Positions 42,834-46,043 of a stretch of 64,000 bases of DNA are shown piece by piece. Positions within the stretch are counted from its first letter, which is position 1; each line of letters opens with the position of its first letter. Origin of the DNA: Ornithinimicrobium cerasi (GTDB taxonomy: Bacteria > Actinomycetota > Actinomycetes > Actinomycetales > Dermatophilaceae); the NCBI RefSeq assembly GCF_003702705.1, contig NZ_QZMN01000002.1, positions 186,001 to 250,000 of the forward strand. Reading direction: 5' to 3'. Below the pieces are notes generated by a model that did no database searches, was not told the DNA's origin, and saw nothing but the letters and a program-made list of their open reading frames with translations. The translations under genes were made by a program, and so were the position numbers.

Positions 42834-44472
42834 TCAGGCATACCTCGCCCAGAAGCTGTTCCGGAACCGCTCCTCCGGGTCGAACCGCCGCTTGGTCGCG
42901 ACGAACTCCGCCAGCCGCGGGTAGGCCCGCGCCACCTGATCCCGGGTGTAGTGCTGCTGGTAGGGCAGGTAGAACGTGCCGCCGAGGTTCAGCGAGGACG
43001 CGACCAGCGAGCGTGTCAGGGAGGCCATGTCCGTGCTCCCGGCGTCGCTGACCTCCTGGCTCAGGTAGAGCACCACGGAGAACCGCTCCCCCTGCGCGTA
43101 GTCGAGCACGACGTCCTCCCGGTGCACCGACCGGATCGAGGCGCTGAGCAGCCGCGCGTCGTGCTCCCCCAGCTGCGCGCGCAGCTCGTCCAGGAACGGC
43201 ACGACCCGCTCGTGCGGCAGGAAGTACTCGTGCAGCACGTCGGTGTACTGCGGCAGCCGGTTCTGCAGGAAGCCCAGGCTCTCGTACATCGCCTGGTTGC
43301 GCGCCACCATGCACGCCTCCATCTCGCGCAGCGCCTCGTTGCGCGACTGCACGCACCCGCGCACGCGTGGCAGCACGTGCTTCTGGGCCCCCCACTTCAG
43401 GCGCTGGCCCACGTCGCCGGTCCGGGCCAGGTTGAAGACCAGCCGGCTCGTCCGGTCCGAGGCCCGCTCCCTCAGCGGTGGCACCGGCTCGTCCGTACCG
43501 GTCCGCTCGTAGGTGTAGACGATCGCCTCCTGCAGCAGGCTGCCCGGCGCCGTGGACAGGTGCGTGTAGGTCAGCCGCACGGCGTCGTCCCCAGCCACCT
43601 GCGCGGCGAAGACCTCCGGGAAGTCGCGGTGCTCGACCACCTGGCTGCGCAGGCGGTACATCTCGCTGTCCACCAGCTCCAGCTCGACGTCCAGCACCAC
43701 CCCGAGGAGCCCGTAGCCGCCCACCACGGCCTCGAACAGCTCCGGCTCCCGGTCCGGACCCACCCGGTGCACCTCGCCGTCGGCCGTCATCACCCGCACC
43801 GACCGGATCGTCGACGACAGGCTCCCCCGCGCGGAAGTCCAGCCCGTGCGCGTTGACCGACACCGTGCCGCCGACGCTGAGCACGTCGACGCTGGGCATG
43901 GTGGCGACCGACAACCCCGCCGGGTGCACCGCCTCGAGCACCTGGTGCCACGTCGCCCCGGCCTGCACCACCGCCGTCCGGGCCTCCACGTCCACCGTGA
44001 TCGCGTCCAGGCCGCGCATGTCGACGACGAGCCCGCCCGGGTGCGACGCCTGCCCGCCCAGCGCGTGCTGCGTGCCACCCACCGACACGGCGAGGTCGTG
44101 CTCGGCGGCGTAGGCGAGCGCCGTCCGGACCCCGGACTCGTCGACCGGCCGCACGACCCCGAACACGGGGGTGCGGGTCAGGCAGCTCGCGTCCGTCACC
44201 GTGCCGCCCTGCTGGGACAACCCACCCGGGTATGCCGCCGCGTCCGCCGGCGCGGGCGCGCGGCTCTGCTCGACGACGGGCAGGGGCGGCACCGGGCTGA
44301 CGACTTAGTCCTTGGCCGCCACCGGCTCCCCCGACCACAACGCGTACTGCGGCCCGCCCACCACCAGGACCACCAGCAGCGCGACGACCACCACGGTCCA
44401 CCGCACCACCCTCCGGCGTCGCGGCCGGTGCGCTCCGGCAGGACGCCGCGCCGAGGGGCGGGGCGAGGACAT
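42834..44472 (-). pseudogene. FAD-binding oxidoreductase, interrupted by a stop codon and a frameshift
   Basis: A membrane-anchored FAD-linked oxidase of the PCMH/vanillyl-alcohol oxidase type. Reading from ATG 44472: a basic start and one membrane helix (VVVVALLVVLVVG), then VAAKD and a TAA stop at 44305-44307. The same frame continues without change into VTDASCLTRTP, VGGTQHALGGQASHPGG and VGGTVSVNAHGLDFRAG (the FAD domain). At the C5 run 43823-43827 the frame must shift by one base for the match to go on as SLSSTIRSVRVMTADGEVHR and on to the C-terminal FNPEERF-like FDPEERFRNSFW. Removing one base and the stop would restore one long protein. TAA is rare here; TAC (Tyr) is one change away. 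Either two genuine lesions or one plus a sequencing error. Confidence 0.75.
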
Positions 44473-44571
44473 GGTCGGCCGGTCAGCTCGCCGTCACGGT
44501 GGTCATGGCCCATTGAACACCCCACAAGCCCGCGGCACGGCGGTAGGCAACGGCGGTGCGCCGCAGACCCG

Positions 44572-46020
44572 TCAGGGCTCGTCCGGGTCAGGCGGGGGCC
44601 GCCGCCGGAGGCCCTTCCCCTGCCATCGCACCTCGACCCCGCGCTCGCGGGCCAGCTGCTCGAGGAGGTGGGCCGTCTCCAGGTTCGCGTACCGGTCGTG
44701 TGAGCTGCTCACCTCGGTCCGCCGCCCGAGGAGTGCGTCGCCCTCGTCCAGCAGCAGCGCCTCCCCCGACCGCTCGGCCTCGTCGAGGATCCGGTTGAGG
44801 TTCTTCTCCGTCTCGCCGATGTAGCTCGACACCACCTGGCTCAGGTCGACCCGGTGCACCGCGGTCCGCGCCGCCCCGGCCGGCGTGGACGGCTTCACCC
44901 GCCGCACCCTGCGGACCGGGCCGGGTGAGGGCGACGGCATACCTGCCTGCAGACGGAGCGTGTGGGCGTCGAACTCGGCAGGCTTGACCGGCGCCAGCCA
45001 CATCGTGAGCACGAGGTGACCCGCGAGCACGTCGACCTCGGTCATCGTCTCCCCCAGACCGCACCGCACCCCGAAGGCGTGCTCGGCCTTCGTGCCCTGC
45101 AGCGCGCCCTGCAGCCACAGCCGGTGCAGGAAGTCCTCCGTGAGCTGCCGCACCCGGGCCCACAGCGCCGCGTCGTCGGCCTCGCTCGCGACGAAGCTCA
45201 GCCCGGCGGTCAGGGAGCTGAGGACATGGTCGGTGAGCCGCCGTACGTTGAGGTAGCGCGAGGCGGGTTCGACGGACTCCGCCCCGGCCAGCGTGCGCGC
45301 CCCCCAGACCAGCCTCCCCCGGCCGGGGAACTCGCGCAGCGCGTTGACCCCGGCCTGTACGTGGCGGTCGTTCTCCCGGTCGTCGAGGGCCTCCGCGAGA
45401 CCGTCCACCCCGCTCAGCGCGACGCCGGCGGACGCCTTCCACACCCCCCGCTCGGCGTCGGTGCGCGCGATCACCCCGGCGACCGGCCCCGACGGCGGCA
45501 CCGTCACGCCGCCGGCGACGACCCAGGGGTGGTATGCCGCAGCGCGCTCCCGGTGCTCGGTCACCTCCCGCAGCAGGGCCTCGGTCCCGGGTCCCCAGGG
45601 GTCCGGCGGCAGGTCCAGGAGATGGACCGCGCGGTATGCCGCGCACCGCCCGAGCGCGACCCGCACCTGGTCGGGGGAGGCCGCGGTGAGGCCGGGCAAG
45701 GCCAGCACGGTCACGCCGGAGCCGTCGAGAGCGTGGACGCCCCCCGGCCCCTCGGGCGGGGCCAGCTGCCCGGGCGCGGGACCACCCGCTCGGACGACCA
45801 CGGCGCTCCGGCCGCCGTTGGCGAAGAACAGGTCGACCGCGTGGCCGAGCGGACGGTCCGCGTCGAGGCTGGGCCCGAAGGTGGCGTGGTAGTCCGCCGC
45901 GCTGGTGACGGTGACCGGGGTGTCGACGGGTCCGGCGTCCGCGGCGCCGACGAAGCCGGTGACGGAGGTGGGCAGGGGCTCGACGGGGGCGCCGGCGGTG
46001 CTGGGTGCGGTGGGCGGCAT
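44572..46020 (-). CDS. orphan contractile-injection sheath protein fused to an eCIS AAA+ ATPase fragment
   Basis: A 482-residue chimera. Residues 1 to about 370 are a contractile tail-sheath protein of the extracellular injection system (Afp/PVC-like) type: TSVTGFVGAADAGPVDTPV near the start, PLGHAVDLFFANGGRSAVVV, PSGPVAGVIARTDAERGVWK in the middle, and at the end RQLTEDFLHRLWLQGALQG, AFGVRCGLGETMTEVD and LVLTMWLAPVKPAEF. A basic linker follows. From about 389 the sequence becomes the middle of the eCIS AAA+ ATPase: VDLSQVVSSYIGETEKNL, Walker B-like LLLDEGDALLGRR, and SSHDRYANLETAHLLEQL. Walker A, sensor and arginine-finger regions are missing. No tube, baseplate, spike or other eCIS gene is in the window. 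It is likely a deletion fusion; it may or may not be expressed. Confidence 0.8.
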   Translation of the reverse strand: MPPTAPSTAGAPVEPLPTSVTGFVGAADAGPVDTPVTVTSAADYHATFGPSLDADRPLGHAVDLFFANGGRSAVVVRAGGPAPGQLAPPEGPGGVHALDGSGVTVLALPGLTAASPDQVRVALGRCAAYRAVHLLDLPPDPWGPGTEALLREVTEHRERAAAYHPWVVAGGVTVPPSGPVAGVIARTDAERGVWKASAGVALSGVDGLAEALDDRENDRHVQAGVNALREFPGRGRLVWGARTLAGAESVEPASRYLNVRRLTDHVLSSLTAGLSFVASEADDAALWARVRQLTEDFLHRLWLQGALQGTKAEHAFGVRCGLGETMTEVDVLAGHLVLTMWLAPVKPAEFDAHTLRLQAGMPSPSPGPVRRVRRVKPSTPAGAARTAVHRVDLSQVVSSYIGETEKNLNRILDEAERSGEALLLDEGDALLGRRTEVSSSHDRYANLETAHLLEQLARERGVEVRWQGKGLRRRPPPDPDEP

Positions 46021-46043
46021 ACGCCATTGAACCGCCCCCCGGG

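Follow-up and report, generated by a model that had tools for sequence, protein, structure and literature searches.

The N-terminal arm of a contractile sheath protein meshes neighbouring subunits. The described systems closest to the gene reported here are the sheaths Cis2 (PDB 8BKY/8BL4) and Afp2/Pvc2, and the AAA+ proteins of the Pvc15/Afp15 type. Cis2 is the CIS sheath of S. coelicolor, where, as described in the available part of the source, insertions in the linker behind the N-terminal arm result in a non-contractile CIS (PMC10066040). Cargo is unfolded by Pvc15, an AAA protein from a related eCIS, and this activity was not abolished when Walker A and Walker B were mutated, again according to the part of the paper that was available (PMC11495950). 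No report of orphan sheaths or of sheath-AAA fusions was found in the literature searched, which comprised mostly titles and abstracts and few subscription journals.

The window, i.e., the whole stretch of 64,000 nucleotides of Ornithinimicrobium cerasi DNA that was analysed, contains a minus-strand open reading frame (46020-44572) in which a short contractile sheath and an eCIS-type AAA+ fragment are joined in one frame of 482 amino acids. Genes were called with a simple codon-usage script instead of a standard gene finder. The start at 46020 is backed by four relatives (L106, L107, L113, and L118), which have a stop one codon upstream, as well as by a start motif common to relatives. The features are the following:

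44572 to 46020, minus strand: whole fusion gene, 482 amino acids, with an ATG start at 46020
44935 to 46020, minus strand: sheath part, residues 1 to about 362, lacking both the N-terminal PGVY arm and the middle part of Cis2
44872 to 44934, minus strand: variable basic linker, residues about 363 to 383
44617 to 44871, minus strand: AAA+ fragment, residues about 384 to 468, starting behind Walker A and stopping before sensor 1
44800 to 44823, minus strand: pore-loop-1 segment YIGETEKN, its role taken from the available part of the Pvc15 paper and from alignment to VCP/Rix7-type ATPases
44737 to 44748, minus strand: Walker-B-like sequence DEGD, which is DEAD in most relatives
46018 to 46031, minus strand: putative start-site element TTCAATGGCGTATG, resembling a leaderless promoter, whose ATG serves as the start codon of the fusion gene
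44504 to 44517, minus strand: second and last copy of the element in the genome, lying upstream of the FAD oxidase gene

A first-pass annotation, made from the letters alone, had read this gene as a sheath fused to a piece of the eCIS AAA+ ATPase, and this is confirmed by Pfam matches above cut-off (PF04984 and PF00004) and by the matches to 8bky and 8bl4. Phage_sheath_1 (PF04984) matches residues 162-244 (E 5.9e-10; 39.7 bits against a cut-off of 31.4), and the closest solved structures are the sheath chains 8bky (E 6.3e-49) and 8bl4 (E 4.8e-48), with sheath homology to Cis2 and Afp2/Pvc2 extending over residues 9-353. The matches of Gp18_domIII_N and Phage_sheath_1C lie below their cut-offs. 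For the C-terminal sheath domain PF17482 the score is 17.6 bits against a cut-off of 26.9; the region is nevertheless aligned to Cis2 by phmmer, and the cut-off is passed by the relatives L026, L027, and L028. The description of the first 370 residues as a complete sheath was too strong. The protein starts MPPTAPSTAGAPVEPLP, with about 12 residues before the linker that lack PGVY, and in this region the equivalent of the linker alone aligns to Cis2, judged by eye and by alignment. In addition, Cis2 residues of about 153-239 are without counterpart. Besides the missing arm and middle part, the protein differs from Cis2-type sheaths in being encoded by a solo gene in a genome without a tube match, and in carrying a foreign C-terminal domain.

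The AAA family PF00004 matches residues 384-459 above its cut-off (7e-7), which is slightly before residue 389 (position 44856), where the start of the AAA piece had rightly been placed. The piece matches VCP/Rix7-type ATPases over pore loop 1 and the Walker B region. Compared by eye with the eCIS AAA genes of the genus, it comprises some 85 residues that begin immediately after Walker A and run to the strand preceding sensor 1. It is 57% identical to L127, an eCIS AAA protein of the same genus, over 75 residues that include pore loop 1 and the Walker B region, whereas L127 counts 635 residues, and the fusion lacks the Walker A, sensor 1, arginine finger, lid, and N-terminal domains of this type of protein. 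The Pfam match sets in at position 22 of the 131 in the profile and the sequence holds no GKT or GKS, so that Walker A is absent; the match stops at profile position 95 and the frame ends shortly after, without sensor 1 and arginine finger. At the Walker B position, L120-L122 have LEEAD or LQEAD.

The sheath was also said to be an orphan, which agrees with the searches for tube and sheath genes: the genome of the window (G000, 99.99% complete) contains no tail-tube match (PF06841), and its single match to PF04984 is the fusion gene itself. A second relative, L123 on contig C63, is a protein of approximately 200 amino acids consisting of the C-terminal part of the sheath and a degenerate AAA-like tail, and is not recognised by Pfam.

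Fused homologues are present across the genus, which sets the gene apart from a single-genome oddity. Chance or an assembly error was considered and rejected, as fused frames recur in 14 genomes. A search of the genus gave a match in 22 of 32 genomes, three of which (G010, G026, and G028) have eCIS-type sheaths only. By hand tally, the family occurs in 19 of the 32 species and is absent in 13: 14 have a sheath with AAA piece, three a sheath with cupin, one (G014) a frameshifted copy, and one (G031) a half-sheath form of 200 amino acids. The C-terminal domain of the family is thus exchanged: the cupin is seen by eye in G002, G005, and G024, and is confirmed by Pfam for G002, Ornithinimicrobium cavernae. 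The AAA piece itself has shrunk in some lineages, to approximately 44 residues in L119 and to an end soon after Walker B in L109-L112, and is degenerate in L120-L124. Most AAA-bearing relatives lack the N-terminal arm; by eye, L114, L117, and L119 still have it. The fusion sits in several gene neighbourhoods, which are partly common within subclades.

The long open reading frames of the family, 17 in number, form one clade (SH-aLRT 99) in a tree of 76 sheaths, where they adjoin a solo sheath of another genus (SH-aLRT 95). This was a quick LG+G4 tree with a composition warning for 17 rows, several of them family members. L118, the frameshifted copy, and L125 were left out of the trees, and the 76-sheath tree additionally leaves out L123 and L124 (200 amino acids) and 24 near-duplicate eCIS rows. 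The cupin clade is nested within the AAA-bearing members (SH-aLRT 88), so the cupin probably took the place of the AAA piece; the branching order conflicts with that of FastTree, in which the cupin clade is sister to the remaining family (0.57). Eleven of the 12 solo rows (five from Achromobacter), all 17 fusions and eight other rows, i.e., six eCIS, one archaeal sheath and the Bathyarchaeum fusion discussed below, make up one part of the 76-sheath tree (support 87; 0.61 in FastTree). Within the genus, two sheath genes lack recognised CIS neighbours as well as an AAA match in the stretch fetched, namely L133 8489-10066 (525 amino acids; G022, a genome without tube match) and L131 7833-9716 (627 amino acids; G018). 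L148, L149, L150, L151, and L155, from other genera of the bacterial family, are likewise sheath genes with no AAA match in the surrounding sequence retrieved.

A near-unique element, TTSAATGNNNNATG (TT[C/G]AATG-N4-ATG, the ATG being the start codon), is present at 11 of 20 family starts: those of the window gene, L106, L107, L113, L114, L116, L117, L118, L119, L121, and L122. L120 has a variant with a spacer one base longer; the element is missing at L108-L112, L115, L123, and L124. In 612 kb of sequence from the genus, 13 sites were found, 11 of them family starts and two upstream of the FAD oxidase adjoining the fusion, in two genomes. The whole 3.83-Mb genome G000 has two sites, at the fusion and at the FAD oxidase, and G009 has the same two; G001 has one, the fusion, and G002 has four, one of which is the fusion. 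The reversed element, used as control, gave 0 to 1 site per genome, and none was found in shuffled window sequences. We read it as a putative dedicated, leaderless promoter-like element. It also lies upstream of the FAD oxidase in the window (44504-44517) and in L106 (at about 12070), and the order of the two genes differs between these genomes, which hints at shared control of fusion and FAD oxidase. The FAD oxidase gene of the window (42834-44470, minus strand) lies downstream of the fusion and is divided among frames: FAD_binding_4 matches in one, and ALO matches weakly, under its cut-off, in another. In L106 (10238-11875) it is a single open reading frame of 545 amino acids, and the split in the window may be a sequencing error.

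With regard to its origin, the annotation had proposed that a deletion within an eCIS operon joined its two ends, and we consider a deletion very probable, by analogy. In the eCIS-type loci of G004 and G028, the sheath, tube, and AAA genes run in the same direction with approximately 3.5 kb between sheath and AAA gene, which is the gene order that a deletion origin would need. As to the site itself, in none of the relatives looked at was an eCIS found there, for instance flanked by the alanine-dehydrogenase-like gene and the FAD oxidase, an arrangement that, according to the annotation, would prove the deletion. The alanine-dehydrogenase-like neighbour was identified for the window and L118. 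An eCIS remnant at the fusion site was rejected, as ten eCIS or solo-sheath regions of the genus, together with further regions, have no neighbour in common with the fusion loci (>60% identity, 60% length). Because no eCIS occupies the site in these relatives and the fusion is found in several neighbourhoods, the event would be old and not local to the strain.

A collapse of this kind can be followed at one site in Achromobacter. Among 268 genomes of the family to which Achromobacter insolitus belongs, 18 carry a relative of the A. insolitus sheath, and the loci of 13 of these were examined. Seven copies consist of a sheath of 389-392 amino acids whose stop overlaps an AAA-like open reading frame without Walker A. 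The loci of G221 and G213 are eCIS with a tube gene and an AAA gene that bears Walker A. When collapsed and eCIS loci are aligned as nucleotides, four collinear blocks emerge: one holds the upstream flank with the sheath N-terminus, one the sheath C-terminus, and two belong to the AAA gene. The collapsed loci lack the inner portion of the long sheath, the intervening operon, and the Walker A region. The eCIS thus collapsed to a sheath and an AAA fragment at the same site, alignable base by base, and together with the gene order in G004 and G028 this supports, by analogy, a deletion origin in Ornithinimicrobium. In Achromobacter, dN/dS is 0.13-0.32 for the sheath and 0.25-0.50 for the AAA frame in five of six pairs, the sixth giving 1.23 and including a copy with a stop, against 0.05 (sheath) and 0.08 (AAA) for the comparison eCIS. 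Among the seven copies, L184 has a stop in the AAA frame and L188 is out of the common frame after residue 141. A further species of the Achromobacter family (L189) has the sheath alone. Two Achromobacter relatives carry a deletion scar in which the first ~25 tube residues are joined to the AAA piece (L190 9020-9349 and L191 8895-9194). The A. insolitus genome, the sole one checked among the seven, has no tube match.

In the archaeon Candidatus Bathyarchaeum bin115 (L028), a sheath is fused in frame to a complete AAA domain with Walker A (GPSGTGKT), flanked, by eye, by asparagine synthase-like and adenylosuccinate lyase-like open reading frames; its 1.6-Mb genome, of unstated completeness, gave no tube match. 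The similar leftovers of Achromobacter and Bathyarchaeum arose separately from the fusion of the genus. The Achromobacter loci (L182-L191) have in common with the fusion a short sheath, an AAA fragment without Walker A, and purifying selection, but in seven of ten these are two overlapping frames. Bathyarchaeum shares the in-frame join of a short sheath with an eCIS-type AAA and the lack of a tube match, but its AAA domain is complete. In both groups the sheaths keep the N-terminal arm.

Beyond these, the matches listed for two sets of genomes were checked, 155 from the remaining genera of the family (at most eight candidates per genome) and 393 from elsewhere in the class (at most four per genome); G070 aside, none of the listed matches runs uninterrupted over both parts. 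The G070 match (residues 169-464) was rejected as a fusion, as it falls in a 699-amino-acid AAA gene without a sheath match. In a contig search, only L028 among the best 80 of 257 relatives has sheath and AAA in one open frame, and none of the 130 matching plasmid records or 103 matching phage records reaches 80% coverage of the fusion protein. A different fusion, of an alpha/beta hydrolase with an eCIS-type AAA piece without recognisable Walker A, was seen in L156 (7456-8742); no other match listed in 187 genomes of the family covers both of its parts.

Selection on the fusion gene was estimated as dN/dS by a simple Nei-Gojobori count on chosen pairs, five of them independent for the family. 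The sheath part gives 0.35 (bootstrap 0.31-0.40) and the AAA core, from residue 389 to GRRT, 0.38 (0.27-0.55); the tail stands at 0.45 (0.28-0.69) and the linker, taken to residue 388, at 0.78 (0.48-1.29). The eCIS sheaths of the genus give 0.10 and 0.11 in two pairs, approximately three times lower than the family sheath. The sheath and AAA parts are under purifying selection, with a moderate constraint that is looser than in the injection machine; comparison with the eCIS sheaths indicates that both parts are kept, less strictly than there. In the closest pair, dS of the fusion gene (0.198) resembles that of neighbouring genes (0.17-0.43), so the gene was inherited along with its neighbours. 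As the AAA piece is reduced, interrupted or missing in several lineages of both the genus and Achromobacter, its role may be minor.

These values bear on a rival reading, in which the gene is a slowly decaying relic without function, its frame open by chance in high-G+C DNA. The raised dN/dS relative to eCIS sheaths, the frameshifted copy in G014, the shortened copies L123 and L124 (in G000 and G031), and the 103-codon open stretch with an AAA remnant but no sheath in G022 (L125 9387-9698) would all fit decay; G022 has a full fusion elsewhere. Nevertheless, dN/dS stays far under 1 with the linker serving as an internal control, the frame is open in 18 of the 19 host genomes (in G031 merely as the 200-amino-acid form), the long members are 47-73% identical to the window protein, and the start element is conserved despite different neighbourhoods. 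A relic is rather unlikely, and the earlier suggestion that the product is kept rather than merely decaying agrees with the maintained frame and the purifying selection.

Another option is that the armless sheath subunit acts as a cap or poison on sheaths belonging to contractile-tailed phages or to foreign injection systems, which would make it a defence or exclusion gene. This could account for the loss of the arm where the C-terminal strand (PAEFDVHTLRLQA-like) is kept, by eye, in most AAA-fused members, for the faster evolution compared to eCIS sheaths, and for the patchy presence and repeated origin; moreover, Streptomyces phage sheaths are 31-34% identical to the protein over residues of about 155-350. 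Yet the arm is kept in Achromobacter, Bathyarchaeum and the three armed members of the genus, no defence gene was recognised by eye in the neighbourhoods, and PADLOC gave no match on two window neighbours. Its matches on the fusion are to the AAA relative IetA over approximately 42 residues, and eCIS AAA proteins match IetA much better. For these reasons, and as the two neighbours scanned for an IetS partner gave no match, the IetAS defence system was rejected. A decoy for tail assembly is, on balance, improbable.

That the product is an accessory of a resident eCIS, e.g., a special sheath ring or a loading adaptor, is very doubtful: sheath and AAA are both eCIS parts and a PF06841 tube gene lies elsewhere in five of the 19 host genomes (G004, G005, G018, G021, and G024), but the other 14, G000 among these, have no tube match, presence of the family is not associated with the tube gene (5 and 14 against 3 and 10 genus genomes; Fisher p = 1), and no eCIS gene was recognised by eye within 4-19 kb around the homologues, which also speaks against the sheath of this lineage normally carrying its tail beside a complete eCIS.

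The reading that we prefer, with chances that we judge to be about even, is that of a domesticated solo sheath serving as a platform that neither contracts nor acts as an ATPase and that carries an exchangeable binding tail. An eCIS operon with codirectional sheath, tube, and AAA genes would have lost the intervening genes early in the history of the genus, leaving one open frame in which the sheath was joined to the AAA. The gene would then have acquired or retained its own start-site element, and would have been inherited and rearranged independently of any injection system. As the N-terminal arm is gone, the product probably makes no contractile sheath any more; with neither P-loop nor sensor 1 nor arginine finger left, the AAA piece probably does not act as an ATPase. 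Given that unfolding by Pvc15 survives Walker A and B mutations, a piece without P-loop could still bind peptides. The sheath core would most likely provide a folded platform that perhaps forms rings, with the C-terminal piece as an exchangeable binding appendage, i.e., the pore-loop-1/Walker-B segment in most species and the cupin in one clade. Altogether, retention under selection in species that mostly have no tube gene, together with the separate leftovers in other microbes, suggests a new function, which may be a scaffold or binding role.

For practical purposes, a lone sheath or AAA match is no proof of an eCIS in a genome. The Achromobacter set offers before-and-after loci for eCIS collapse, and the genus of the window offers 17 species with long open copies that can be used for functional tests. 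More broadly, and tentatively, solo sheaths, whether bare or equipped with non-catalytic AAA or other C-terminal modules, may be an unrecognised recurrent product of one eCIS sub-lineage, spread over Actinomycetota, Betaproteobacteria, and Archaea, with a cytoplasmic role outside injection, e.g., in blocking contractile-tail assembly or as a ring-shaped scaffold. Phage tails became injection systems; if this proposal is true, a further step would follow, in which one part of the machine outlives the machine as a single gene with exchangeable tails.
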